DNA of 64,000 bases from Chloroflexota bacterium. Its GTDB lineage: Bacteria; Chloroflexota; UBA11872. The DNA is taken from NCBI GenBank assembly GCA_022821645.1, contig JAJEDE010000025.1, positions 248,001-312,000 of the forward strand. Reading direction: 5' to 3'. Below the pieces are notes generated by a model. It ran no database searches, was not told the origin of the DNA, and was given only the letters and a program-made list of their open reading frames with translations. The translations under genes and the position numbers were made by a program. Numbering within the stretch: position 1 is the first letter of the stretch; the number at the start of each line of letters is the position of its first letter. Shown piece after piece: positions 3,706 through 43,215 of the stretch.

Positions 3706-3912
3706 TTGAACCCCGATATCCATCCCGACTACATGGTCTGCCGCGTGACCTGCTCGTGCGGCAACATGTTCGAAACGCGCGCAACGACATCTTCGATTCA
3801 CGTGGACGTGTGCTCCAATTGCCACCCGTTCTATACGGGTCAGCAACGGCTGGTTGACTCGACCGGTCAGGTGGAGCGGTTCGAGCGGCGCCGTCGCCGG
3901 TCCCGCGGCTAG
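3706..3912 (+). CDS. rpmE: 50S ribosomal protein bL31
   Basis: 68-aa bL31 of the zinc-binding type. The four ligands are visible as CSCG (residues 16-18) and CSNCHP (36-41), with the usual basic C-terminal tail. Initiation is at a TTG at 3706 with GGAGG about ten bases upstream; no ATG gives a complete protein. It heads the conserved rpmE-DUF1385-prfA-prmC cluster. Confidence 0.95.
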   Translation: MNPDIHPDYMVCRVTCSCGNMFETRATTSSIHVDVCSNCHPFYTGQQRLVDSTGQVERFERRRRRSRG

Positions 3913-3951
3913 ACCGTCCCAAGGGCGGCTGAGCACCGCCGTGATTTCCGG

Positions 3952-4932
3952 ATGAGCACCCCGGTCCCGAGTTCCGCGTCGTCCGACGACAGCAACGAAC
4001 TGCGTATCAACTACGGCGGCCAGGCCGTGCTGGAAGGCGTGATGATGCGCGGCCGCCGGTCGGCCGCCACGGCCGTGCGGCATCCAGCCGGGCACATCGT
4101 GCTCAAGGCCGAGGAGCTTGACCCCAACCGGCTCTCGCAGCGGCTGCGGCGGGTGCTGTTCGTGCGCGGAATGGTGGCGTTGTGGGAAATGCTGGCCATT
4201 GGCCTGCGGGCGCTCAATTTCTCGGCCAACGTGCAACTGGCCGAGGAGGAAGACCAGGACGAAGGCCCCGGAGGCGCCGCCGGCGGGATGATGACCGGCA
4301 GCCTGGTGATCGGCCTGGTGATCGGCGTGGCGTTGTTCTTTGTGCTGCCGCTGGTGTTGACGTCGTTTACGGACGGCCTGGTCGAATCCGACTTCCTCAG
4401 CAACGTGATCGAGGGCGGCGTGCGGATGGCGGTGTTCGTGACCTACATCGCGCTGATCGGCCTGATGCCGGACATCCGGCGGGTGTGGATGTATCACGGC
4501 GCCGAGCACAAGACCATCAACACGCTGGAAGCCGGGGAGCAACTGTCCGTGTCGAACGTGCGGCGGTTTGGACTGGCGCACCCGCGCTGCGGGACGTCCT
4601 TCATCGTCACGCTGGTGGCGATCTCGATCATCGTCTTCGCCCTGCTGGGACGCCCGCCGATGGCGATTCGCGTCGTGTCCCGCATCGTGTTGCTGCCGCT
4701 GATCGCGGGCGTGGGCTACGAGTACATCATGCTGACGGCCCGCTACCAGGGTTTCGCCATTGCCCGATGGGCCTCCAAGCCCGGCATGTGGTTCCAGAAA
4801 ATGACCACGCGCGAGCCCGATGACGATCAGCTCGAGGTGGCCATCACGGCCATGGATCACGTGCTGGCGCGCGAGGACTCGTTGGCAGAGTTGCGGCCGG
4901 CCGCCGTGAATGCGGTCGTGGTCGATGATTGA
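3952..4932 (+). CDS. DUF1385 (YqhQ-like) membrane protein
   Basis: 326 aa, matching the DUF1385/YqhQ family. The N-terminal signature [14 protein letters not shown] spans residues 21-34 and the central signature [16 protein letters not shown] follows the second membrane pair; [14 protein letters not shown] follows. Four to five hydrophobic segments are seen. The function is unknown in the family, which very often sits between rpmE and prfA, as here. Its stop overlaps the prfA start (ATGATTGA). Confidence 0.9.
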
Positions 4933-6004
4933 CCGGCTGGCCGAGGCGCGTCGCCGCTATGACGAGCTGACGGCGGAGCTTGCGGGCGCGGGAGGCGCCC
5001 TGGACTCGCGGCGCCTGGCGAGCGTCGGCCGGGAAATGTCCCAACTGGAGACGGCGGCGCGGCTGCACGACGAGCTGGCCGAAGCCCACGAGCGAGCGAG
5101 CGAGGCACGCGAACTGCTTGGGTCATCGGATTCCGAACTTGCGGAATTGGCACGCGACGAACTGGATGAGGCGCAGGCCGAGATCGCGGAGATCCGGACG
5201 CGGGCCGTTGACGTGCTGGTCAGCGACAACCCGGATGATGCGCGCAACGCGATCGTCGAGGTCCGAGCCGGAACGGGTGGCGACGAGGCGGCGTTGTTTG
5301 CGGGCGACCTGCTGCGCATGTATTCGCGCTACGCCGAACAGCTGCGACTCAAAGTGGAGCCGCTGACCGTAAGCGGCACCGACCGTGGGGGCATCAAGGA
5401 GGGCATCCTGCGCGTGGTCGGCGCCCAGGCCTTTGGCGCGTTCAGGTTCGAGAGCGGCGTGCACCGCGTGCAGCGTGTGCCGGTGACGGAAGCGAGCGGC
5501 CGTATCCATACCTCGGCGGCCAGCGTGGCGGTGCTGCCGGAAGCCGAAGAGATCGACATCGAGATTCCCGAGTCGGACGTCCGCGTGGACGTGTTTCGCT
5601 CGAGCGGCCACGGCGGCCAGAGCGTCAACACCACGGACTCCGCCGTGCGGGTCACCCATTTGCCGACCAACACTGTCGTAAGCATCCAGGACGAAAAGTC
5701 GCAACTGCAGAACCGGGTAAAGGCCATGCAGGTGCTGCGTGCGCGCCTGCTGGAACAGGAGCGCGAACGCCAGGCGGCCGAGCGCGGGCAGGCGCGGCGC
5801 GACCAGATTGGCAGCGGTGACCGCAGCGAGAAGATTCGTACCTACAACTTCCCGCAGGATCGGATCACCGATCACCGCGTGGGCCTCACCGTCCACAACT
5901 TGCCGTCGATCCTGGACGGAAACCTCGACCGGCTGGTCGACCCGCTGCGACAGGCCGAGCGGGACCGCGAACTGGCGGGGCTTGCCGACGGCAGCGCTGC
6001 CTGA
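4925..6004 (+). CDS. prfA: Peptide chain release factor 1
   Basis: 359-aa class-I release factor that terminates translation at UAA and UAG. The catalytic GGQ is at about residues 230-232 ([10 protein letters not shown]) and the anticodon-like PVT at 186-188 ([14 protein letters not shown]) marks RF1 rather than RF2. The ATG at 4925 ([15 protein letters not shown]) was chosen over an upstream in-frame start at 4910 because it matches the family N-terminus. It overlaps the DUF1385 stop by 8 nt. Its own modifying methylase, PrmC, follows immediately. Confidence 0.96.
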
Positions 6005-27063: not shown

Positions 27064-27246
27064 CCGCCGCCGTTTCCCTGCGCGTGTGACGGTGTCCAGG
27101 ACTCGGCATCCCGCCGGCGCGCGTGTGTTCCGCGCCGCAAAGCGCAGCCTTGTCTCAATATACTCGTGTCATCCAACTCGCCGCCGCCGCGAACACTTCG
27201 GTCGTCGGTTGCTTTGTCTGTACCCCATCGCTCGAGGCGCCGTCTT

Positions 27247-27282
27247 CCCCCTCTCCCCATGGGCGAGGGTTGGGGTGAGGGT
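27247..27282. repeat. CCCTCTCCCC/GGGGTGAGGG intergenic repeat
   Basis: A GC-rich inverted sequence (CCCCCTCTCCCCATGGGCGAGGG followed by TTGGGGTGAGGG, split over 27247-27282) in the 290-bp gap between the zinc-finger protein and lepB. This is the type of short imperfect palindrome that occurs scattered between genes in many bacterial genomes. Only one copy was noticed in the window. Confidence 0.5.
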
Positions 27283-27354
27283 CTTCCGCGCACCCAACGA
27301 CGAGTGACCCCGGTCAGGCATTTCAGCCGCGTCGGCAATCTCCGCTGAGGCTCC

Positions 27355-28439: not shown

Positions 28440-28561
28440 CCACTCCGGCTGAAGAGGCGGCAGACGGCCCGCCGCAAGTGCTGGCCGTGATATTACCGGC
28501 GGGTCGTCCGCCAGAACTTCGATAGCGGCGCCAGCCTGCGCACTTGCTACGATTCGCTCCC

Positions 28562-29770
28562 ATGAGCCTGCAAGCCCACTACAGCCCCGTCGCCCAGGCG
28601 ATGGAGCAAAACCCGCTGCGCCCCAGTTGGACCATGCAGCGGCCCGGCCTCATCAGCCTGGCCTACGGCTTCCCCGATTCCGCCAGCTTCCCCTACGACG
28701 AGTTGGCCGATACAACCGCCGAGCTCATGGCCGACCACAACGCCGAGGCCCTCCAATACGGCCCAGTCTCCGGCCCCGAACCGCTGCGCAGCTTCCTGGC
28801 CGAGTGGGTAAGCGCCACCGAGGGGCTGGACGTCGGCCCCGACAACATCATGATCACCAGCGGCGCCTCCCAGGGCATCGCCCTCGCCGCCCGGCTGCTC
28901 GTTCCGCCCGGCGGAACCGTCATCGTCGAGTCGCCCACCTTCATCGGCGCCCTCTGGTTCTTCCGCGGTCTCGGCATCAACGTCGTCGGCGTGGACACCG
29001 ACGCCCAGGGCATCGTCCCCGGCGCGCTGCGCGAAACGGTCACCCGCCAGCGCCAGGCCGGCGCCCACGTCTCCCTCGTCTACACCATGCCCACCGTCCA
29101 CAACCCCGTCGGCTTCAATTCCCCCGTGGAACGCCGCCAGGCGCTGGCCGAGGTCGGCGAGGAGCTTGACCTGGTCTTCCTGGAAGACGACGCCTACGGC
29201 GACCTCATCTTCGAAGGCGACCGCCCCCCGGCCCTTTACTACATTGCCGGCAAAGAGCGCGTCATCAAGCTGGGAACCCTCTCCAAGCTCGTCGCCGGCG
29301 GCATGCGCCTGGGCTGGGCCGTCGCCGAGCCCGACGACATCTCCCGCATGTGCGGCCTCAAGGCCGACAGCGCCACCAGCCCCTTCGCCGCCTGGGTCAC
29401 CGGCGCCTACCTGCAAAGCGGCGCCCTGGCCAAGCGCCTGCCCTCCCTGCTGGACCTCTACCGCAGGCGTCGCGACGCCATGCTCCAGGAACTCGCGCCG
29501 CTCCGCGACCTCGGCTGCAACTGGATCACCCCCGTCGGCGGCTTCTTCATCTGGCTCGAGCTTCCCGAAGGCGCCGACAGTGAGGCCATCCGCGAACGCG
29601 CCGAAGAAAACGGCGTCACCTACCTCGCCGGCCACCACTGCTTCGCCCACGACCGCAACCGCCGCTGCATCCGCCTCGCCTACAGCTACATCCCCGAAGA
29701 CCAACTCCGCCAAGGCACCCGCCGCCTCGTCCAAACCCTCCAAACCGAACTCGCACCAGCCGCTAACTAA
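28562..29770 (+). CDS. PLP-dependent aminotransferase, class I/II fold (2-aminoadipate transaminase-like)
   Basis: 402-aa fold-type-I enzyme. Seen: YGFPDSASFP near the start, LQYGPVSGPEPLR, the aspartate and tyrosine of DDAYGDLIFEG, and the Schiff-base lysine of LGTLSKLVAGGMRLGW at about residue 242. This subgroup (MocR/LysN-like catalytic domain without a DNA-binding part) includes 2-aminoadipate and broad-range aminotransferases, so the substrate is open. ATG 28562 was chosen over an upstream TTG. Confidence 0.88.
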   Translation: MSLQAHYSPVAQAMEQNPLRPSWTMQRPGLISLAYGFPDSASFPYDELADTTAELMADHNAEALQYGPVSGPEPLRSFLAEWVSATEGLDVGPDNIMITSGASQGIALAARLLVPPGGTVIVESPTFIGALWFFRGLGINVVGVDTDAQGIVPGALRETVTRQRQAGAHVSLVYTMPTVHNPVGFNSPVERRQALAEVGEELDLVFLEDDAYGDLIFEGDRPPALYYIAGKERVIKLGTLSKLVAGGMRLGWAVAEPDDISRMCGLKADSATSPFAAWVTGAYLQSGALAKRLPSLLDLYRRRRDAMLQELAPLRDLGCNWITPVGGFFIWLELPEGADSEAIRERAEENGVTYLAGHHCFAHDRNRRCIRLAYSYIPEDQLRQGTRRLVQTLQTELAPAAN

Positions 29771-32520: not shown

Positions 32521-33207
32521 CTAGCGCGGCACGTCGCCCTTGTCCAGCTGCTCTTGCCAGCGGGCCAGCATGCGGTTGACCTTTTCCCCGGCATCGAGCA
32601 TGGACTGTACCGGATCGGCTTCACCGACAAGCGCTTTGTCCAGCAGGTCGTTGATAAGGAGCCACGATTCACCTTCGATGTGCCGCTGATACGTACCGCC
32701 GTTGAGCAGGTTCACCTAAGACAGCGTCCCTGCGGCGGCCTCGATCGCAATCTTCTCGTAAAAAATGTGGTTCTGCGGGATGAACTTGATCTTGATGTCG
32801 GGCCGCTCAACCGCAAATCGCTCGATCGCCCAACTCATCGCCTTCCCACGGGGAGCGGACGTGTGATCAGTGGCGAATTCGATCTTCACGGTTCGCTGTT
32901 CGGGCTGGGCCTCCACCATGACTTGAACTTCGCGGGTGACGACTTTTTCGACGACCGTCTCGCGTTCGACGATCTGTGTCACGACGCGTTCGACCGGCAC
33001 CTCGACCTGCTGGGTCACGACCTTCTCTTGCGTCACGGTCCGTTCAACTGGGACTTCCCTGACCTCGGTCTCGCGGACGATCTTCTCGACCGGGACTTCC
33101 TTTGTAATGATCTGAGGCTCGGCCTCGCCGCAGGCCGCCAGCGCCGCAACGCCCGCTGCGCTTACGCCCAACCCGCCGGCGATTCGCAGCAACTGACGCC
33201 GGGTCAT
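32521..33207 (-). pseudogene. Internally deleted extracellular solute-binding protein
   Basis: The 5' part (33207-32716) encodes a twin-arginine-like lipoprotein signal (MTRRQLLRIAGGLG ... ALAAC), then about 60 residues of Val/Glu repeats (KEVPVEKIVRETEVREVPVE type) and the first strand of a family-1 solute-binding domain, ending at EAAAGTLS and an in-frame TAG. The frame continues after the TAG into a typical solute-binding C-terminus (YQRHIEGESWLL...NRMLARWQEQLDKG, 32715-32521). About 250-300 codons of the middle domain are missing, so this is a deletion remnant that cannot make a working transporter subunit. Confidence 0.8.
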
Positions 33208-33746
33208 TCGCGAGTCCTTGCGCCTAGCGAACGCCTCCCCCCTCCACGTGCCGCATCCACTCGACGCCCTAGGCCAAGCTGCGATGCGGTCACGAAAACT
33301 TCAACTGCGAATCTCACGGCTCCGAGGCATCCCTGAGGCACCGCTCAGCTAAGGGAATCCGCCGGTAGACGTCGCTCCCTACCGTCTCCGCCCCTGCCAG
33401 ATCGACTCCCTGAACCCCGCAGCTAACTTGCGCTCGCCGCCGCCGCCGCTACCGCCTTCAACCCCACCGTCGCCGCCGTCCACTCAATCCCCGCCGATGC
33501 CCAGGCCAGCCATGCCCCGCACTTGATTCGCCGATCCCGATCCTTTGCTGGAGACAATATGTGGGCACGCCTCATTCCGCACTGCGCGCCCGACTGGCCG
33601 GCGGCGGTCTGCCTGCCCGAGACCATTTGAAGCGTTGATCCCGGCTCTGTCTAAGGACCTTTCTTGCACCGTCCCCAGAACCGCATTGAGCAAGGACTAC
33701 CGTTCTCGATCGGCCAAGGCGACCAGGTCGAGAAATAGGGCAGGGA
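33208..33746. other. Non-coding stretch containing one fabH-end repeat
   Basis: About 540 bp between the broken solute-binding gene and the giant helicase. No credible gene was seen on either strand; short open frames lack family motifs. The only recognisable element is the fabH 3'-end copy at 33430-33511, within which the frame still encodes AGIEWTAATVGLKAV as in fabH. Confidence 0.6.
33430..33511 (-). repeat. fabH 3'-end direct repeat, distal copy (A)
   Basis: 82 bp aligned without gaps to the true fabH end at 41921-42002; counted by hand, 74 of 82 bases match. The conserved frame reads LAWASAGIEWTAATVGLKAV on the minus strand, same orientation as fabH. It lies just beyond the 3' end of the giant helicase gene and forms the outer boundary of the accessory region. 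Confidence 0.85.
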
Positions 33747-36700
33747 CTATTCCGCGACCGTAAGCATCTGGTCATCGCCCTTCAGTTTCCCGGCGTGTAC
33801 AAGCTGGTCAACGGCCTTTCCGATACGTCGCGCGATGTCTTTGCCCGTCCTCCGGTAGCCAAATTGCCGTGCTGTTTCTGCAATCAGGTCTTCACGCCCC
33901 GCCCCGTACAGCATCTCCGCGCAGACGAGGATCCCGGCCTTCAATTCGGCCAGCGAAATGTGCTCGACTCTTCGCCGCGTGTCATCACTCGCAGGCGCGC
34001 GCGGTGCTATGGATTCTGCGTTGGCAGGATCCATCAGAAACAGATATTGAGCTGCCGCCCCTGACTTTTCCTCAGGCAGCCACGTTAGGTTGACGTGCGC
34101 CGCCCTACGGATTGCGTTGAGAAACCGCTGGCGCGTCGCGCCGCGCATGCGACTCGCCGGGAATCGTCGCCGAACGCGTTCCAAAACGATGTCGCGGTGC
34201 ACCGGTCCCTCAACGCGCACCACCTCGGTTATCAATTCGCACAGCCTCGAGATGCTCTCCAGCCGAAGCTCTGAGCCGACTCGAAACGTCGTCAGATCGG
34301 CTTCGCAATAGGCATCGAACAGGGCGATTCCCTCACCTGTCTCGTCAGGCTCAACCTCGCCCTGGCAATTGCTGTCCTGCTTATCTTCTGTCTCATCGTT
34401 GCCCGAATCCTCAGTCAGCTGTTTCTCGCTGGCGTCGTCTGAGTCGACCTCGACTTGAGTGCCGGCTTGCGGATCCTCGGAAACACTCCCCGGTGAATCT
34501 GCCTCGTTCAGCGCGAGCTCTATCGCGTCAAGTTCACGCTGCGGATTCTGTATCCACGCCCGCGACCAAACGCGATGGATCCTCCAGCCCAGGCCCTCCA
34601 ATACCGACTGACGCAGCCAATCCCGGTCACGCGCGGCCGGGGCGCTGTGATACGTCGCCCCGTCACATTCAATGCCCAGGGCATAGCCTTCTCCATCCTC
34701 GGCTTGGATGGCCAGATCGATCCGATAGCCAGCCACGCCAACCTGGGTAGCAACCCGATGACCGCGCTGGACCAGCGCACGTCGCACGGACTCTTCGAAT
34801 GGGCTCTCGGTATTGACTTGGCCATTATCAGCTGCCGCCTGCCCGAGCGCGGAGTCTGGGCTCCGAGCGAACTCCAAGTATCGTTTGAGCAGACGTGCAC
34901 CCCGGCTCTCCGATGTGATGTCCTCCGGCTTCAGCGAATGCAGAATCGTCATCGACCGGCGTGCCCGGCTCACTGCTACGTTTAGCCTGCGCTCGCCGCC
35001 TTCGTTGTTAATCGGACCGAAACGGTTGTAAATCTGTCCGGACTCTGTGGGTCCATAGCACACGGATAAGAGAATGTGATCGCGCTCGTCACCTTGGACG
35101 TTCTCGAGATTCTTGACAAAAAACCGCTCCTGCCGCTCTCGTGCGAATTGATCTTCGTACTCCGGATGGAACTCGCGCGCTTCGTCGATGAGTGTTTCGA
35201 TTAAATCCGCCTGGGCCCGGGAGAGCGTAACGACCCCGATGCTCTCGGATTTCGGTCGTGTTCGAAGAAGCTCGAAGACCAACTCAACGACTCTCTCCGC
35301 CTCTATTCGGTTCGTCCGCGAGCCGCCGGACTCGTAGCGGCCATCCGGCAGGTAGACGGCCTGGACGCCATGAGCAGCCGGCTTACGAGGGCTGGGAAAC
35401 GTCAAGAGCCGATCGTCATAGAAATAGTGGTTCGAGTAACGAATCAGGCTGTCGTGGCGGCTGCGGTAGTGGACCCCGAGATAGTGCTCGGCGACACCGC
35501 TGCCCACCATTCCCACCATCACATCCAGAATGCTCTCGCGCCCCTCAAACCAGTCGGTCTCCTCGTCGTCGCCGTCGTCGTCATCATCCTCGTGCTCGTA
35601 GCGATGCTGGAACAGCGTGGTCGGAGGCAACTGCCGACGGTCCCCGACGACGATTGTCTGATTCGCCCGTGAAATTGCCGGGACCGCGTCCTCCGGCAAC
35701 ACCTGCGACGCCTCGTCAAACACGACGGTGTCGAAGTGAAGGTTTGCGCTTGCTGCGCCTGTGCGCTCCAGGTACTGGCTAACGGCCAGAGGGCTCATGA
35801 GGAAGCAGGGCTTCAATGCTTGGATGAGCTGCGGCGCTGCAGCAAGCAAGCGACGTACCGAGAGTTGGCGGCGCCGCTTCGTCAACTCGCCTCGCAGGAC
35901 GCCGAGTTGACCGGAGCGTGTCACGCCGGTTCGTGACTTGGGATACTTCTCGAAGAGGTCCATGCGGGCTCGCTCGCGTAGGACTCGGGGAAGCTGGCGA
36001 TCAAGAGTCTGAAAGTCGCACCTAATCGCCTCGTGATCTCGCCCCGTAAAGTCTCTCAACCTGGAGTCCTGCCCCGAGACGGCATCAAGCCACGTCGCGA
36101 ACAGGCGTCGGTTTACAATCCCAGGAACCAATGACGCGTCGTTGGTTGCTTCCCGGATTCGATGAACCGTATCCGAGCCAAAGGTGCGGTCAAGGTCGTC
36201 CGCAGCAAGCTTGAATTCAATCCAATTTGCCGCGCTATCCGCGTCTCGATGGATAGCCTTGATCCAAGCCGACAACTCGGCGAAAGGCGCCGCTTCCCAG
36301 GACTGCCACGGTGAAGCCGCGACGTCGAAGCGCTTACCTAGCACCCCCAAATCGCTGGAATATGCCGACTGAAGTGATCTAATGGCCTCTGCAACTCTAA
36401 CTGGATCGATGGGCATTGCCTCCGCGCAGACAAGTTCGCTCAGGCGTTCACTTAGGCGGTGACCTGCCGTGTCGATGAGGATCTGGCACCAGTGAATTGC
36501 GTCAAGGACGCCATCCCAATCGGTGGAACGATCTCTGAACCACTCGCCAAAATCCTGACGAAGCGCGTCTCGAGATTCACGTTCGACCTGCTCGATACTC
36601 TGAAGACGCGCAAGGTCATCAGTGAGGTCGCCAAACGACTGCCAGTCCGCCGGCGCGGTGGCGAACCTCTCGACGACCGGGCGCGCGACTTTCTCCAACC

Positions 36701-39700
36701 GCATAAGTGCCGGGATTGTTTCCTGCACCGCTTCGACGACACCCAATGGGCCGAGCTCTTTGAGGTCCAGGCAAGCCGAGTCCAGGTCTTGCAGCGAGTC
36801 TTTGAGTGACTGCAGCCTCTTTCGAGTTGCCTGCTGTGTGCCGTCTAATGCGCTCAGCGTCGTCTGATTCGTGAGCAACACACTTAGCTGGTCCAGATTC
36901 CATGGCCAGCTAATCAGGAGGTCTTGTACTCGGCCAAGTGAGGTTTCGAGTTCTACCCAGTCCGTCTCTCTGGAGCGCGCGTGTCGGCCAATGCGTGGTT
37001 CGATGTCCGAATAGGCATCACTCCAACGTGCGCGAAGCTCTCGAATCGCCACCGCGCGCTGAGTCGCTTCAAGTCCTTCATTCACGGTTACCGGCGCTGG
37101 TGTCTTGGTGTAGTTCCCGAGCAGGGCGAGCGCCGTGTTTGCCTTCTTGGTTATCGCTTCCACACCCGCAGGACCAACACTCTCCTCATCAAGTCTGTGT
37201 TGGCGTACAGAGCGCAGGGCGCTTTGCAGCTCGCGATTGTCAGACTGAGCTCGGGCCGCTGTCTGTCGCAGATCCTGACGAGCCTTGAAGTCCGTCAAGA
37301 GGATTCGGAGGGCGGCGGGTTCCCAGGGCCACTCGATCAATCGATGTGCGGTCTGGTCGACTAACTGCTGAAGCTGACTCCAGTCGGTTTCCCGCCCACT
37401 GGCGTAGGGACCGAGCAGTGGTTCAACCGCGGCATACGCCGTGTCCCAGTTGCCACGAAGCTTCTGGACCTCTAACGCGCGCTGAACCGCGTTCAGAGCC
37501 TCGTCAACCGAAAAGCTCTGTGGAACCTTCGCGTGGCTCCTGAGTAGTCGTTGATCGCGCCGCCATGCCCCACTGAGCAATCGCCGAATCTTGCTTTGAT
37601 GGTCGACACGTAAGCGGTGCAGCAGGTGGTCGTCCACAGCCTCAAGCAACTCCGGATCAAATTCCTCGAACAGGCCGGATTCAGCGTTATGCAGCGCCTC
37701 ATGAGCTGAGCCGGCGTTGTGAACTAGACGCTTGATCTCTTCTAGCCGGTCACTCTCCAGCCATGCCTCTGGCACAACACCCATGTCACGCAGGTCTAAG
37801 TCCAGATCACGTGCAGATTCAAGCACGTGCACAGTCCATCGCCATGAGTTCGCAGACAGATCTGAACCCAGAAGGCTTGCGAGCTGCGCCAGTGTTTCCG
37901 TCAGAGCGACGGCGGCAGCATGTAGAGGTTCGCTCACCTCAAGCGAGGCATTGCCGATCAGCCGCTGCAAATCACTTCGATAGTCCGCGTGGAATCGAAC
38001 TAGCGCTTCGCTGTCGACTTCATTCGCTAGTTCCAAGTCGAAACTAACGGCGAGCTCGGCTTCGGCTGTTGCTAGAGTCTTTTCAGCCAGGCTCGCGACA
38101 ACGACCCGGTCTTTCAAACCCCCGATGTGGTCTAGGTCGAGCCACGTTGCCGGCACTGTACCTGTCGCGACGACCTCCCGTGCAAAACCAAGCGCACGCG
38201 ACGATTCGAGCCACGAGCCTGTCGTTGAATCGGCTCCGATCTTGCTCGCAAGCTCGTCGAGCAATGCCACAAATTCAGCCGCATCAGCGTGCACCCTAGC
38301 TGTGCTGTCCAGCAACCGCCTGGGGTCTGGCATCAGCCACGCTGACCATCCTGATCCAAACGCTTGGTGCAAAGCCCGAATCTCGCCGGGGACAGGGCGT
38401 ATCGAACGCGACAGTTGCTGGTAGTCAAGCGCAGGCGCTCCCCCACCGAAGGCTTTTCCTGTGCGTTCAGCAAGCGCAAGAGCTTGCCGCTGTTGCTCGC
38501 GCTGCTCCGAGGCGACCCGGCGCAGCTTGGCCCGAGTGTCTTTGCTCAGCCAGTGCCGGAGCACGCGCGGCTTCTCACTGAGGTGAAGGGCTATGGCACG
38601 CAGATTGGACGCTTCGTCAAGATCCGCCGGAGTTGGCGTACCTATAAGAGCAGCTTGTTCCTTGAGCGAGGCTTCTGTGCGACCGAGAGCCTCGCGCACA
38701 GTGTTGGCGTCGCGCTTGAGTCGATCCGCGAGTCCAACCGAGCTAGTGAGCGGTTTCAACAGATTCCATTTGGACCTTTCAAGCTCGCGGAACTCGTCTG
38801 GTCGGCGTGCGATGCGGTCTACCACTGATCGCACCTCTCTGAGGTGTGGCTCATCAATGGCCGCCGCGCCCGGCACCCGGAACTCCACGTCCGGTAGATC
38901 ACGCAATTGCGCGTATTCACCGTGAATCTCGTAAACACTGCGCCCCAGCGGCCGTCGAGGTTCATGCAGAGCGCGAACGACCTTGTTTAGCGTTCTTCTG
39001 TTGGCCTCTAACTCCGCGAAACCATAGTCGAATATCGTGACTTGTCCACTAGCTTCAATTGAACTCCGTAACTGCTCATACACGGATGTCTTACTTGCCC
39101 TATCGCTATGCATGTCCAGGCAGAATACGCCGAGGTCCTCTGAATCAAGTCGGTCCTTGACCACATCCAGCGCCACGCTCTTTTCGCTGACGAATAGAAC
39201 TCGCTTCCCGTGGGCGAGTAAGTTGGAAATTATATTGACGATGGTCTGACTCTTGCCGGTTCCGGGCGGCCCGTGAATAACCAGGTTTGCGCCGTCGCGA
39301 GAAGCTGCGACGGCGCGTAGCTGACTATGGTCAGCGGGCAACACCACGAATTCCTGTCGAACATTGAGCATGTCATCAAGCCGCCCACCGGCGAGCTCAG
39401 AGTCAGCAGGGAAAGCACCACGCGGTGTGGCCCCGTCAGAATTGAGCACCAGCGGTTCCCCAGCGAGTCGGCGAACCAGCGGGTGCGTCACACCCACGCT
39501 TCGCATTTGGTCCAGGTCTTCCCACATCGCGAGCTTTGTGTATTGAAAGGTCGACAGCACCACCTCATGGGTAACTCGCCAGCCGTCGCGTTTGACTATG
39601 AGCTCCGAAACCTCGCGCAGGTAGTCCTCGTACGTTTCGTGATCAAATTCGGGAAGCGTGATTTCGAACTCTCGAAGCTTGTGGCGCAGGGTGGCATTGG

Positions 39701-40313
39701 CCGTGGCGTCGTCGTCCTCACGCCGCAACACGAACGGTTCGCCGGGCGATGAGCGCTGCAGGTCAACCGGCAATAGCAGAAGCGGTGCCTTGGCTCGCTC
39801 GCGGTCCTCGTCGATCCACTCAAGAAACCCGGCCGCCAGGAAAAGCACATTGATTCCCTGCTCTTCCATCCACTCCCGCTCTTTGCGCAGGAAACGCAGC
39901 AGCACCCGCTGCAGCGCCAGCGGCTCGACGTCCGCTGTCAGATCACCGGGCACGAGCTCAATGTCCGCGTCCGCCGCCACCGGTTCGGAAGTTGCCGGCT
40001 TGAGCGCCGTGCCGCGCCGACGGCGACGACGTCGCGCGTAATCGAAAGTTCGACCTCTGCGCGCACGCTGCAAATAGTCATCGATTCCGTCAGGGTTGAA
40101 TCGACTGATGGGAACACAGCGGATGGTGGCTCGTCGGCCCGACTTCGGATCTTTGGGTGAGGTGTTTCCTTTGAAGTAGAGCAGGTTGTTGCTGCGGTTC
40201 AACTGCAGCAACTGGCTCTGCCAGCGCGCAACCGCCGCGTCTACGGTGTCTATCTCTGCTGACGCATCTGTCGACACTGTCTTTGGCTCTGGAGGGTCAA
40301 GACGCTCACCCAT
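33747..40313 (-). CDS. Giant DUF4011-SF1 helicase-Vsr-like nuclease-DUF3320 protein (predicted anti-phage defence)
   Basis: 2188 aa. DUF4011 occupies about residues 25-250 (WQSQLLQLNRSNNLLYFKG). Helicase motif I is HGPPGTGKSQT near 348-356. Motif II is VVFDEASQVLPEDA near 1530, then GDRRQLPPT and the C-terminal RecA domain with QGDERDHILLSVCYGP and NVAVSRARRSM. An MTES_1575/Vsr-like PD-(D/E)xK nuclease (GIECDGATYHS, LGWRIHRVWS) lies near 1885 and DUF3320-type repeats at about 2040-2185. An ~1180-residue insert separates motifs I and II and contains a repeated ~143-residue unit. This domain order matches, from memory, the single-gene Hhe defence candidate. No partner gene is nearby. Its GC is visibly lower than neighbouring genes, and fabH-end repeats flank it, so it was probably acquired horizontally. 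Confidence 0.88.
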   Translation of the reverse strand: MGERLDPPEPKTVSTDASAEIDTVDAAVARWQSQLLQLNRSNNLLYFKGNTSPKDPKSGRRATIRCVPISRFNPDGIDDYLQRARRGRTFDYARRRRRRRGTALKPATSEPVAADADIELVPGDLTADVEPLALQRVLLRFLRKEREWMEEQGINVLFLAAGFLEWIDEDRERAKAPLLLLPVDLQRSSPGEPFVLRREDDDATANATLRHKLREFEITLPEFDHETYEDYLREVSELIVKRDGWRVTHEVVLSTFQYTKLAMWEDLDQMRSVGVTHPLVRRLAGEPLVLNSDGATPRGAFPADSELAGGRLDDMLNVRQEFVVLPADHSQLRAVAASRDGANLVIHGPPGTGKSQTIVNIISNLLAHGKRVLFVSEKSVALDVVKDRLDSEDLGVFCLDMHSDRASKTSVYEQLRSSIEASGQVTIFDYGFAELEANRRTLNKVVRALHEPRRPLGRSVYEIHGEYAQLRDLPDVEFRVPGAAAIDEPHLREVRSVVDRIARRPDEFRELERSKWNLLKPLTSSVGLADRLKRDANTVREALGRTEASLKEQAALIGTPTPADLDEASNLRAIALHLSEKPRVLRHWLSKDTRAKLRRVASEQREQQRQALALAERTGKAFGGGAPALDYQQLSRSIRPVPGEIRALHQAFGSGWSAWLMPDPRRLLDSTARVHADAAEFVALLDELASKIGADSTTGSWLESSRALGFAREVVATGTVPATWLDLDHIGGLKDRVVVASLAEKTLATAEAELAVSFDLELANEVDSEALVRFHADYRSDLQRLIGNASLEVSEPLHAAAVALTETLAQLASLLGSDLSANSWRWTVHVLESARDLDLDLRDMGVVPEAWLESDRLEEIKRLVHNAGSAHEALHNAESGLFEEFDPELLEAVDDHLLHRLRVDHQSKIRRLLSGAWRRDQRLLRSHAKVPQSFSVDEALNAVQRALEVQKLRGNWDTAYAAVEPLLGPYASGRETDWSQLQQLVDQTAHRLIEWPWEPAALRILLTDFKARQDLRQTAARAQSDNRELQSALRSVRQHRLDEESVGPAGVEAITKKANTALALLGNYTKTPAPVTVNEGLEATQRAVAIRELRARWSDAYSDIEPRIGRHARSRETDWVELETSLGRVQDLLISWPWNLDQLSVLLTNQTTLSALDGTQQATRKRLQSLKDSLQDLDSACLDLKELGPLGVVEAVQETIPALMRLEKVARPVVERFATAPADWQSFGDLTDDLARLQSIEQVERESRDALRQDFGEWFRDRSTDWDGVLDAIHWCQILIDTAGHRLSERLSELVCAEAMPIDPVRVAEAIRSLQSAYSSDLGVLGKRFDVAASPWQSWEAAPFAELSAWIKAIHRDADSAANWIEFKLAADDLDRTFGSDTVHRIREATNDASLVPGIVNRRLFATWLDAVSGQDSRLRDFTGRDHEAIRCDFQTLDRQLPRVLRERARMDLFEKYPKSRTGVTRSGQLGVLRGELTKRRRQLSVRRLLAAAPQLIQALKPCFLMSPLAVSQYLERTGAASANLHFDTVVFDEASQVLPEDAVPAISRANQTIVVGDRRQLPPTTLFQHRYEHEDDDDDGDDEETDWFEGRESILDVMVGMVGSGVAEHYLGVHYRSRHDSLIRYSNHYFYDDRLLTFPSPRKPAAHGVQAVYLPDGRYESGGSRTNRIEAERVVELVFELLRTRPKSESIGVVTLSRAQADLIETLIDEAREFHPEYEDQFARERQERFFVKNLENVQGDERDHILLSVCYGPTESGQIYNRFGPINNEGGERRLNVAVSRARRSMTILHSLKPEDITSESRGARLLKRYLEFARSPDSALGQAAADNGQVNTESPFEESVRRALVQRGHRVATQVGVAGYRIDLAIQAEDGEGYALGIECDGATYHSAPAARDRDWLRQSVLEGLGWRIHRVWSRAWIQNPQRELDAIELALNEADSPGSVSEDPQAGTQVEVDSDDASEKQLTEDSGNDETEDKQDSNCQGEVEPDETGEGIALFDAYCEADLTTFRVGSELRLESISRLCELITEVVRVEGPVHRDIVLERVRRRFPASRMRGATRQRFLNAIRRAAHVNLTWLPEEKSGAAAQYLFLMDPANAESIAPRAPASDDTRRRVEHISLAELKAGILVCAEMLYGAGREDLIAETARQFGYRRTGKDIARRIGKAVDQLVHAGKLKGDDQMLTVAE

Positions 40314-41168
40314 CGGTTCGTGCTATCGCCACTACGCTCGCCCAGGCGCGGCGACAGCATAAGGACGGCATGCGCCGCCTGTCATTTCCCGCAACACTGC
40401 CGAGAGATTCAACCTGACCAATTTGCCGAGACTGCGCGCAGCGAGCCAGTGGCGACTTCCGAAGAGTTCGAGATTGCGTCGGGCGAAGTCAATGGGCTCA
40501 ATTGTCCGAACCGCTCGGCCCGAGCATTCTGGCGCTGGACACCGAAGATTGCGCCACTTGGAATGTCCGCTCAGCCAGCTAGACGTTCACATCTGCCGCG
40601 AGACGTCTAGGTGATACAGGGGAAAGGGCGCGGGTGCCAATGCTGGTGTCCACCAAATTTTGCAGAGAATCCCTGGCTCGCTTTGGGGATGACCTCGGTG
40701 CGAGCAAGCAACAAACATGGGGAGCATGCTCAGGCCGAAGCGAGGCTGGCTCTGCCCTTCGACACCCAGCCGCCCGGACCTGCTGCGGATTCCTGCCACG
40801 ACGGAATCTGACCAATTTCAGCCGTGCGCCGCACAAGCAGGCTTTGCCTACACAGGCTTGCTGAGATCGTGACCTCTTGAAAGACGGCTACCCCGCGCTC
40901 GCCGCCGCGGTCGCCACCGCCTTCAACCCCACCGTCGCCGCCGTCCACTCGATTCCCGCGGCGGCGCGTTCACCGTGGCTTGCAAGGTCTAGGACGAAAA
41001 AGGCGGCGAAGGTATGTGGGCCGGTCGCATAGAGGTTGTATGGCCCAGCCGCGCACGGTACGCCGGCAAGCCGCGTCTGGACACCGTGCCATAATCTGAG
41101 TGTGGCGGATGTGGACGGTGCTCGGCACGCCGGGTGCCAATGGAAGTTGCTCCTGAAGGAAGGAACCG
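40314..41168. other. Non-coding stretch upstream of the helicase and DUF4065 genes
   Basis: About 850 bp between two genes that diverge from it (helicase leftward, DUF4065 rightward). Short open frames were checked and none has family motifs or a good initiation site. It contains the fabH-end repeat B at 40887-40959 and presumably promoters for both genes. Confidence 0.55.
40887..40959 (-). repeat. fabH 3'-end direct repeat, middle copy (B)
   Basis: 73 bp aligned without gaps to fabH at 41913-41985; 68 of 73 bases match by hand count. It includes the fabH stop codon context (GCTACCCCGCGCTCGC) and stops matching abruptly after GATTCCCGC. The encoded frame reads AGIEWTAATVGLKAV, sharing with copy A the Gly that is Lys in fabH itself. 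It separates the helicase cassette from the DUF4065 cassette. Confidence 0.85.
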
Positions 41169-41612
41169 ATGGCCAGCGTGGCCGATGCAGCGGCATACGT
41201 GCTTGAAAAGCACGGAGCGATGACCGCAATGAAGCTGCACAAGCTGCTCTACTACGCCCAGGCGTGGCACCTCGTGTGGGACGAGGAGCCGCTCTTCGAC
41301 GAACGTATCGAGGCGTGGGCCAATGGCCCGATCGTGCCCGCCATCTACCAGCAGCATCGGGGCCGCTTCAAGCTCGATAGCTGGGACGGCGACGCCGCGA
41401 ACCTGGCGCCGAATGAGGCCAAGTCGGTTGACGTCGTTCTGGAAGACTACGGAAACATGAGCGCCCATGATCTCAGCACGTTGACCCATCTGGAGGCCCC
41501 GTGGCGCGATGCGCGCGGCGACCTGCCCCAGGGCGAGCCGTCAACGGCGGAGATTACGACCGTCGCGATGTTCGAGTACTACGACGGGTTGCTTGACGAA
41601 GCCGAGGTCTAA
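41169..41612 (+). CDS. DUF4065/Panacea domain protein (SocA/GepA-like antitoxin type)
   Basis: 147 aa matching the phage-associated DUF4065 (Panacea) family: MKLHKLLYYAQAWHLVW, IEAWANGPIVPAIYQQH and a C-terminal helix. The ATG follows a strong GGAAGGA site. Family members such as Caulobacter SocA act as antitoxins or proteolytic adaptors, normally beside a toxin gene. Here the next frame is a helicase fragment, so the toxin is either missing or unrecognised. It lies in the cassette between fabH-end repeats B and C. Confidence 0.88.
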   Translation: MASVADAAAYVLEKHGAMTAMKLHKLLYYAQAWHLVWDEEPLFDERIEAWANGPIVPAIYQQHRGRFKLDSWDGDAANLAPNEAKSVDVVLEDYGNMSAHDLSTLTHLEAPWRDARGDLPQGEPSTAEITTVAMFEYYDGLLDEAEV

Positions 41613-41900
41613 GGGCCGCAGGTTTGGCGAAAGGCCGACGGCGGCAAGCCCGCGCTGATCGCCGCCGTGATGGTCTGGCTGCGGCTCGCCCACGATGTCC
41701 AGCGCTTCCTGCTCCTCTGCCCGAACCGGATCGTGCGCGATCGACTGGAAGCCGACGTTCGCGGCGGCACAGTGTTCCGCGAGCGCGGCCTGATTCCGCC
41801 GGAGACCATCGTGACTGCGGACGACTTTGCGCTCACCACGCTGGGCGGCGACTCACGCGCGACCGCCGGTATCGAGACGTTCGTGCCGCGAATGCCGTGA
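41613..41900 (+). pseudogene. Fragment of a restriction-type DEAD/DEAH helicase
   Basis: An in-frame continuation after the DUF4065 stop encodes about 95 residues without an upstream initiation site for a full protein. They resemble the first RecA domain of type III restriction/DEAD-box helicases downstream of the P-loop: GGKPALIAAVMVWL, then FLLLCPNRIVRDRLEAD and TVFRERGLIPPE, ending DDFALTTLGGD. The P-loop itself, the DExH box and the rest are absent. Family assignment is by pattern recognition only. Confidence 0.55.
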
Positions 41901-41912
41901 CCTGGAGCTAAC

Positions 41913-42002
41913 GCTACCCCGCGCTCGCTGCCGCGGCCGCCACTGCCTTCAACTTCACCGTCGCCGCCGTCCACTCGATTCCCGCCGATGCCCAGGCCAG
42001 CC
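41913..42002 (-). repeat. fabH 3'-end direct repeat, genic copy (C)
   Basis: This is the functional 3' end of fabH including its TAG at 41916-41914. It matches copies A and B in the same orientation. It encodes the last ~30 residues, including an Ala-rich tail of about 18 residues beyond the Trp where FabH proteins normally finish. Confidence 0.85.
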
Positions 42003-42951
42003 CGGCCCCGAAGCCAACCATCACCACCCGGTCCCCCGCCTGGATCCGTCCAGACTCCAGCGCCTCGCAGAGCGCGATGGGAATGGATCCGGCCGACGTG
42101 TTCCCGTAGCGGTCCGCGTTCACGAAGACCCGCTCCATGGGGATGCCCGCGCCTCGCGCCGCCGACTTGATGATGCGCAGGTTGGCCTGGTGCGGAATGA
42201 ATAGATCCACGTCGTCTGGGCCTAGGCCGGTGTCCAGCATGGTTTGACGCGCCGCCTCGGCCGTGGCCGTCACGGCGAACTTATACACCTCGCGCCCGTT
42301 CATTTGTAGGTAGTGCGCCCCGGACTCGATCGTCTCCACCGTCGCCGGCTGGTGGCTGCCGCCCGCCGGCTGGATCAGCAGCGGCGCCCCGGCCCCATCG
42401 GATCCCAGCACCGTGCTGAAGATTCCGCCCGGCCCGTCCGTCGCCTGCATCACCACCGCGCCCGCGCCGTCGCCGAACAGCACGCAGGTCGAGCGGTCCG
42501 TCCAGTCCACCACCCGCGACATCGTGTCCGACCCGATCATCAGGATGGTCCGGTGCGTCCCCGACTCGATCAGCCCGCGGCCCACGGCCAGTCCGTACAC
42601 GAAGCCTGCGCAAGCCGCGTTCAGGTCGAATGCGCCGGCGCCCCGGGCGCCAAGCGCGTCCTGCACCAGGCTGGCCGTTGCCGGAAAGCCGTACTCCGGT
42701 GTCAGCGTCGCCACCACCACCAGGTCGATGTCGTTCGGATGCACGTCCGCCACCTGCAACGCTTGCTTCGAGGCCTCCAGCGCCAGCGTGAAGGTGGATT
42801 CCCCGTCGGCGGCGATCCGGCGTTCGCGGATGCCGGTGCGCGACACGATCCACTCGTCCGACGTGGCCACCAGGCGCTCAAGTTCCGCGTTGGTGCGAAC
42901 CTGCCGGGGAACGCTCATCCCCCAGCCGGTTATCGTCGCTGCACGGCTCAC
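41914..42951 (-). CDS. fabH: 3-oxoacyl-ACP synthase III
   Basis: 345-aa ketoacyl synthase that condenses acyl-CoA with malonyl-ACP to start fatty acids. The catalytic Cys is in NAACAGFVYG, the His in IPHQANLRII and the Asn in NADRYGNTSAGSIP. GTG 42951 (VSRAATITGWG) has GGAG six bases upstream and matches the family start, so the open frame up to 43074 is not used. The tail after GAGLAWASAGIEW is extended by an Ala-rich stretch of about 18 residues that coincides with the triplicated repeat. Confidence 0.95.
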   Translation of the reverse strand: MSRAATITGWGMSVPRQVRTNAELERLVATSDEWIVSRTGIRERRIAADGESTFTLALEASKQALQVADVHPNDIDLVVVATLTPEYGFPATASLVQDALGARGAGAFDLNAACAGFVYGLAVGRGLIESGTHRTILMIGSDTMSRVVDWTDRSTCVLFGDGAGAVVMQATDGPGGIFSTVLGSDGAGAPLLIQPAGGSHQPATVETIESGAHYLQMNGREVYKFAVTATAEAARQTMLDTGLGPDDVDLFIPHQANLRIIKSAARGAGIPMERVFVNADRYGNTSAGSIPIALCEALESGRIQAGDRVVMVGFGAGLAWASAGIEWTAATVKLKAVAAAAASAG

Positions 42952-43215
42952 GCAAGGCTCCAGTGGTTTGGAACGTTCAGCAACGTCCACCGGCGAGCAT
43001 AGCCGCCGAGAGCCGCCCAACGCGACTACCGCGCGCCGGCCGCCAACCACGCGCCGGACCGCCAACGGCCCCAAGCTCCGAACGGCTCGGCCTCAAACCG
43101 GGCATGTTCCTGGCATGCGCTCCTTCTTTCGTTGAGGCCGGTCTGAATCCGGCCACATTCCGGGCAACCACTAAGCCGCGCACCGTCCCTCGCCGAACGC
43201 TTGCGGACTCACTGC
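42952..43215. other. Divergent intergenic region between fabH and fabF
   Basis: The first half of a 608-bp gap between two divergent fatty acid genes. No gene, tRNA or clear repeat was seen. It should hold the fabH promoter, but no convincing -10/-35 pair was found on the minus strand. Confidence 0.5.

Follow-up and report, generated by a model that had tools for sequence, protein, structure and literature searches.

The window analysed here is a stretch of 64,000 nucleotides from a Chloroflexota bacterium (GenBank assembly GCA_022821645.1, contig JAJEDE010000025.1, positions 248,001 to 312,000), in which the 3′ end of the gene fabH recurs twice downstream of the gene itself and sets off two cassettes with genes of restriction and candidate defence type. 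The genome, G000, consists of 28 contigs (3.55 Mb), and the window corresponds to C28:248001-312000. For comparison, we used 12 genomes of the same genus (13 with G000) and six same-family genomes of another genus, which were all that the search returned. The target gene and its tail copies are as follows.

41914-43074, minus strand: fabH (FabH, 386 aa), the target gene (Pfam PF08541/PF08545).
41913-42010, minus strand: proximal tail copy, the last about 98 bp of fabH, a direct repeat.
40887-40965, minus strand: middle fabH-tail remnant, 73-79 bp, with its 3′ end at the stop codon (repeat search, profile and self-BLAST).
33422-33519, minus strand: far fabH-tail remnant, 98 bp, read as an old native fabH 3′ end (repeat search, profile and the G005-like flank beyond it).

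The repeat search revealed three in-register direct copies of 98 nt, at 33422-33519, 40887-40984 and 41913-42010, with spacings of 7465 and 1026, and the copy at 40887-40984 is similar only as far as about 40959-40965. In self-BLAST the middle copy matched over 73 bp at 93.15% (68/73) and the far copy over 98 bp at 86.7%, or at 90% over the 82 bp considered earlier. The original prediction had described the fabH 3′ end as present in three copies, all in fabH orientation, with hand-counted identities of 68/73 (40887-40959) and 74/82 (33430-33511), and had placed two cassettes between them; both searches agree with this, and the cassettes lie at 40960-41912 (about 0.95 kb) and 33520-40886 (about 7.4 kb). 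Over the whole of G000 there were three matches at E ≤ 0.01 (1.1e-40, 3.0e-26 and 9.7e-25), with 40 of the 70 first-look candidates scored. All three are in the window, and on this ground the reading of the repeat as a dispersed element was rejected. Short fabH-tail matches in G002, G004, G005, G006 (C60) and G012 (C110) were taken as chance, and that in G012 was not recovered by the profile. It had further been suggested that about 18 extra residues at the end of FabH came with an incoming attachment sequence. This C-terminal extension was found in 10 close relatives (G001 and G004-G012) and also in the insert-free G002; therefore, it did not arrive with the insert, and we abandoned the suggestion.

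The DNA downstream of fabH differs among the relatives. In the window, G005, G011 and G012, where the contigs are long enough, fabH is separated by about 9-26 kb of variable DNA from the periplasmic-binding-protein gene that adjoins the aminotransferase gene. The sequences that follow the fabH stop codon fall into three families. Family A comprises the far copy of the window and G005, loosely G008, G010 and a G006 remnant, and briefly G012; family B comprises the middle copy of the window, G006 and G009; and family C comprises G001, G004 and G007. The first 45 bp after fabH itself, compared with family B, gave P values of 0.018 to 0.089 against shuffles. The flanking features in the window are as follows.

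33208-33421, minus strand: family-A flank, the upstream region of the open reading frame (ORF) 32716-33207; found directly after fabH in G005 and, more loosely, in G008 and G010.
40747-40886, minus strand: family-B flank, like the DNA directly after fabH in G006 and G009.
28544-29770, plus strand: aminotransferase gene (PF00155), which adjoins fabH in G002, G003 and the six same-family genomes.

The flank past the far copy is 86% identical over 254 bp to the DNA directly after the intact fabH of G005. The flank past the middle copy is 73% identical over 144 bp to the post-fabH DNA of G006 and 72% over 72 bp to that of G009. The insert is absent and the repeat single in G005 (apart from a possible 17-bp remnant farther off, matched by eye only) and, more loosely, in G008 and G010. 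Remnants of the fabH tail were found by profile in 3 of the 13 genomes, at the fetched loci rather than in whole genomes: two in the window, one in G009 (140 bp) and one in G006 (60 bp, E 0.0004). A whole-genome DNA search agreed with the profile. Since the flanks of the remnants match flanks that lie directly after an intact fabH elsewhere, the window looks like a series of downstream alleles stacked behind one gene, and a truncated fabH tail appears to mark each seam between them. To judge from gene order, we take the aminotransferase directly beside fabH to be the probable ancestral layout.

Two side observations concern this region. Beside the fabH remnant of G009 (L063, about 3900-4200) there are an almost pure G/C run and an assembly gap, so that the surroundings of this remnant are less reliable. 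A dispersed repeat at 27233-27302 of the window (CCCTCTCCC...GGGAGAGGG...GGTGAGGGTCTTCC) also occurs downstream of fabH in G001, G004, G007 and G009, and repeats resembling it gave 12-14 matches in 0.7 Mb.

The contents of the two cassettes were identified mainly with Pfam, PADLOC and comparison with a methyltransferase-DUF4065-Res operon of G002 (contig C1, locus L167), in which N6_N4_Mtase and ResIII were recognised by Pfam.

40960-41912, plus strand: cassette 1, part of a type III restriction operon, truncated, about 0.95 kb, by homology to the G002 operon.
40955-41028, plus strand: DNA from the 3′ end of a methyltransferase-like ORF, 5′-truncated at the seam, 82% to L167 5474-5547.
41169-41612, plus strand: DUF4065/SocA_Panacea-domain gene, 147 aa (PF13274, E 2e-18).
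41616-41903, plus strand: piece of a type III Res subunit that lacks both ends, 79% to L167 6752-6985 within the ResIII ORF.
33747-40313, minus strand: 2188-aa protein with DUF4011, SF1 helicase, MTES_1575 nuclease and DUF3320 (Pfam); PADLOC candidate defence gene PDC-S37, 1276.7 bits.

The DUF4065 gene of the smaller cassette is more exactly a SocA_Panacea gene (PF13274), and what had been called a helicase fragment there matches part of a type III Res subunit; the fragment gave no Pfam match of its own. The giant helicase-nuclease of the larger cassette was recovered as predicted; its second PADLOC match was to the candidate defence protein Hhe (530.6 bits). Relative to G002, cassette 1 begins 89 bp before the end of ORF 4519-5562 (L167 5474-5547 being 89 to 16 bp before that end), stops inside Res and carries an internal deletion. 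An end of this kind, inside a foreign gene, would be expected from an illegitimate joint or a later deletion and does not look like a tidy element border. At the mid-tail seam, and at this one seam only, fabH, the seam itself and the operon of G002 share the 5-bp sequence CCCGC, with G002 as a stand-in for the donor. The methyltransferase of the G002 operon (L167 3707-5562) appears to be split over two frames and may be broken; ORF 4519-5562 is probably the frameshifted 3′ part of the N6_N4_Mtase ORF 3707-4975.

A fixed link between this cargo and fabH tails was rejected, because relatives of the helicase sit away from fabH in G004 (70-71%) and G002 (61-62%, one piece 41%), as do relatives of DUF4065 in G002, G006 and G012; the original prediction had named such an outcome as one that would refute it. 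Around these relatives of the helicase, no convincing pair of flanking repeats was seen in either genome. In G002, a 251-bp repeat in two near-tandem copies (81%) lies immediately beyond the 3′ end of the helicase relative (L165 13659-14233).

We then scanned gene ends in general, using genes of at least 130 aa called by a simple ORF picker and accepting copies of 40-220 bp at ≥75% with at most five matches, a setting that replaced a looser first scan. In G000 the scan covered contigs C28 and C1 (0.70 Mb, 515 such genes). Three of the 515 genes had stop-anchored, same-strand tail copies downstream (four copies in all), and none were found upstream or inverted. These genes were fabH (two copies), a glycosyltransferase gene and an M23/SLT-domain gene, all on the single 434-kb contig C28, and the direct repeats flanking the inserts measure 73, 98, 74 and 60 bp. 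The same count gave two in 0.50 Mb of G002, none in 0.39 Mb of G004 and one in 0.40 Mb of G013, which belongs to another genus. The core common to the three tails is a 7-mer at most, and 208 of 500 codon-shuffled controls reached at least 7, which is not above chance. The original prediction of fabH as a stacking site held in so far as remnants occur also in G006 and G009 and unstacked alleles in relatives. It was not supported for fabH as a dedicated attachment site, since the pattern recurs in this genome at two or more further genes, and no core beyond chance is common to the three tails. Stop codons and start codons alike have synteny breakpoints clustered around them (within about 10 bp); therefore, the breakpoint count does not single out stops. 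Two other repeats were noticed on C28. At 362323-362460 and 364673-364811, the first part of a 399-aa gene (its 5′ end) is repeated over 139 bp (89%) as a gene-head counterpart of the tail copies, and two tRNA-His genes (85 bp, 93%) lie 1.66 kb apart at 321912-323652 (L185 1919-3653) with a 378-aa ORF between them.

C28:36354-37553: glycosyltransferase gene of G000; tail copy of 74 bp, 96%, 2.0 kb away (gene-end scan).
C28:109190-111142: M23/SLT-domain gene of G000; tail copy of 60 bp, 92%, 18.9 kb away (gene-end scan).

The glycosyltransferase gene is the cleanest case of a tail-copy insertion in G000. The whole locus (C28:34260-37553, L172 14260-17553) contains an insert of about 2 kb that encodes a 570-aa protein with a pentapeptide-repeat match below cut-off; no restriction genes were found in it by Pfam. 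In G001 and G004, a single glycosyltransferase tail is followed by the flank that lies behind the distal copy in G000. The two copies of G000 differ at four sites, all synonymous, with the last three bases set aside. The non-coding distal copy is nearer than the gene itself to 9 of 9 relatives, and it agrees with more relatives at three of the four sites, the fourth being a tie. This suits a gene end that was imported with its cargo.

Throughout the genus, toxin-antitoxin and restriction modules are stacked behind the M23 gene, with tail seams between them. The G000 locus (C28:109190-131089; L176, L177) and loci L219-L226 were compared, and 10 loci were scanned with a tail profile. Eight tail remnants were found in six genomes, three of them in G005 and one each in G000, G001, G006, G007 and G008. 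The profile found none in G009, G010, G011 or G002, and the contigs of G009 and G010 end early. The orders, with module names from Pfam unless noted, are as follows.

G006: M23 gene, XRE/M78 with a 169-aa partner (no Pfam match), tail, FitA and PIN, HicB.
G001: M23 gene, FitA, tail, XRE/M78 and partner.
G007: M23 gene, FitA and PIN, tail.
G008: M23 gene, XRE/M78 and partner, tail, GIY-YIG-like (below cut-off).
G005: M23 gene, XRE/M78 and partner, tail, 1272-aa helicase-like protein, tail, GIY-like and PIN, tail, PIN.
G000: M23 gene, HsdM-S-R, tail, FitA.

XRE/M78 with its partner thus stands behind the gene in G005, G006 and G008 and behind a tail remnant in G001, while FitA stands behind the gene in G001 and G007 and behind a remnant in G000 and G006. 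From its first base, the post-remnant DNA of G006 corresponds to the post-gene DNA of G007 (762 bp, 79%), and the post-remnant DNA of G001 matches the post-gene DNA of G006 over 230 bp at 70%. Modules thus occur both behind the gene and behind a tail, and these two swap places between genomes. At the module-to-tail junction in G005, G006 and G008, a 12-mer is common to two only.

All 13 genomes of the genus were searched for tyrosine and serine recombinases (PF00589 and PF00239), and no match was found on C28 or near fabH, in agreement with the earlier remark that no integrase is visible at the island. Several relatives' fabH contigs are short, which makes this a limited test there. In G000, PF00239 gave no match, and both PF00589 proteins are encoded on contigs other than C28; no convincing repeats were seen at the other integrase of this genome. 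G002 is a single contig, on which about 0.27 and 0.9 Mb separate fabH from the two PF00589 matches. A defence hot spot need not contain any recognisable mobility gene. In G007 an IS481-type transposase gene lies 0.17 kb downstream of fabH (L057 2567-3700) and in G004 one lies 0.8 kb downstream (L054 8332-9525); none were seen in the cassettes of the window.

The remnants end at or near the stop codon: 0-2 bp from it at fabH, 4 bp at the glycosyltransferase gene, and at most 8 bp for seven of the eight M23 remnants, with 18 bp for the eighth. Their starts vary, from about 17 to 140 bp before the stop. Differences between copies at fabH and the glycosyltransferase gene favour third positions (14 of 22, P 0.0035; the fabH copy enters into two of the three pairs), and all 68 differences taken together include 30 at third positions (P 0.041). 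Where the fabH gene and the middle copy differ, the gene fits the relatives' majority at 3 sites and the copy at 2, with one tie.

With slightly better than even confidence, we read these loci as the result of additive, homology-anchored insertion of a donor gene end with its cargo ('allele stacking'), a process akin to insertion with long target duplication and without a fabH-specific element. Related-strain DNA carrying a fabH 3′ end and its own downstream cargo would recombine with the resident fabH, and the other end of the donor DNA would join resident DNA in the last about 20-140 bp of the resident fabH, replacing nothing beyond. The outcome would be an intact gene with a donor tail, new cargo, a truncated resident tail and old cargo. 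Two such rounds would give the order of the window: fabH, type III restriction-modification (RM) piece, tail, helicase-nuclease, tail and native flank. The gene-cargo-tail unit could then enter any allele by RecA recombination, with crossovers in the gene body and the tail and without an integrase. The newest cargo would lie next to the gene, and the founding joint may have formed by microhomology, as seen at one seam. The repeats, the unstacked alleles of relatives, the recurrence of the pattern at three genes and the changed module order at the M23 gene are observed; this polarity, the sequence of events and the parts of RecA and of uptake of DNA are what we infer. It is also possible, although on balance doubtful, that the genus maintains an integrase-free cassette system. 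The 3′ ends of some core genes would then serve as recombination sites, each defence or toxin-antitoxin module would carry a short gene tail, and homologous recombination would add, reorder and remove modules, with integron-like logic and without the integron enzyme.

Allele stacking is favoured further by the DNA behind remnants that elsewhere directly follows the intact gene, by the varying starts of remnants whose ends lie at or near the stop, by the synonymous differences at the glycosyltransferase gene, by the third-position excess at this gene and fabH, and by the foreign gene cut at the seam with CCCGC. Several observations weigh against it. The G004 sample had no tail copies, and gene-head copies over the four samples (eight upstream and three downstream, some of them paralogue pairs) were about as frequent as the seven tails; therefore, gene 3′ ends cannot be said to be preferred. 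For an 81-aa FitA-like gene, too small for the scan, a tail copy was seen on the upstream side. The five of eight M23 remnants that were compared differ at 12, 18 and 16 sites by codon position, with no excess at the third. The fabH gene fits the relatives' majority at 10 of the 14 sites where it differs from the far copy, so the far copy also looks decayed. No remnant exceeds about 140 bp although the genes are 1.2-2 kb long, which requires the extra assumption that long repeats recombine out. The IS481-type genes beside fabH in G007 and G004 indicate that insertion sequences also use the spot. ComEC is present, but it is found also in 10 of 14 control genomes and therefore says little, while Ku for end joining is absent in 13 of 13 genomes. 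Most relatives are metagenome-assembled genomes.

Site-specific integration, in which non-autonomous elements with a gene-end mimic (attP) would be moved by an integrase in trans or since lost, seems to us unlikely. It would account for stop-anchored direct repeats of similar length, a restored gene end, empty sites in relatives and tandem stacking. Integrative elements are known at protein-gene 3′ ends (e14 and phage 21 at icd), as is tandem accretion of islands, and the restored end, direct repeats and stacking are shared with them. However, no integrase was found here by the domain searches near fabH (several relatives' contigs being short), the three target genes are unrelated and have no common core above chance, the inner boundaries vary, and one cassette end lies in a foreign gene. 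One fabH-tail pattern scanned in viral contigs gave 0 matches, and mobilisation in trans, which the original prediction had taken to be implied unless the enzyme was lost, may have occurred but is required by nothing found. Very improbable, in our view, is an assembly artefact (chimeric joins at repeats) or an unrelated tandem duplication of the gene end followed by decay. The assemblies are drafts, G000 has a contamination of 7.13%, and in G001, G006, G008 and G009 the contig breaks off no more than 0.9 kb downstream of fabH; yet the M23 pattern recurs in six genomes with homologous modules on both sides, a single 434-kb contig carries all three G000 loci, and the DNA between the copies differs, contrary to a tandem duplication.

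A strict form of insertion with long target duplication, reportedly described by Nobusato et al. in 2000 for RM genes of Helicobacter pylori, is in our judgement decidedly unlikely. A break of long stagger in the resident tail would capture foreign DNA, and fill-in would duplicate the tail; restriction genes may provoke the break. The parts of the literature consulted describe such insertions in H. pylori, often with restriction genes (PMC1643837), and long, variable target duplications with all types of RM systems (PMC3031569), which is the same picture. Our loci resemble these partial descriptions in the long variable direct repeats flanking the inserts, and in the absence of the insert from relatives with a single repeat (G001 and G004 for the glycosyltransferase, G005 and loosely G008 and G010 for fabH). 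They also resemble them in the RM genes at fabH (type III remnant, beside the candidate defence helicase) and M23 (HsdM/S/R), but not at the glycosyltransferase gene. The partly decayed far fabH and M23 remnants would suit a duplicated resident copy to some extent, whereas the glycosyltransferase locus, where the coding copy is the outlier, argues against one. The duplications stop at or near the stop codon and do not run into common downstream DNA; behind each copy stands an allele of its own, which other genomes carry beside the intact gene. Stop-anchored repeats, diverged copies, alleles of their own at the seams, and stacked cassettes that swap order thus differ from the insertions as those parts describe them.

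Homology-facilitated illegitimate recombination, in which one end is joined by homology and the other illegitimately, as given in part of PMC3240628, resembles allele stacking in having one end of each kind. It differs, as far as that part goes, in that our events are deduced from genomes, additive and repeated at the same gene ends, with microhomology at one joint only. PDC-S37/Hhe (PADLOC) are alike in the cargo helicase-nuclease only and do not explain the repeats. Integron gene cassettes differ in that no PF00589 match lies near fabH; attC sites were not searched for. In the literature consulted we found no counterpart to seams anchored at the stop codon, to stacked alleles that elsewhere lie beside the gene or to the swapped order, and gene-tail-punctuated defence cassettes were not among the top-listed literature matches (titles and abstract starts) of a narrow search.

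If allele stacking is correct, gene-tail seams would provide a readable record of insertion order, and islands could grow and spread simply, by host recombination alone. Scans of the DNA downstream of genes for truncated copies of their tails would then catch defence and toxin-antitoxin modules that are missed by integrase-based searches.

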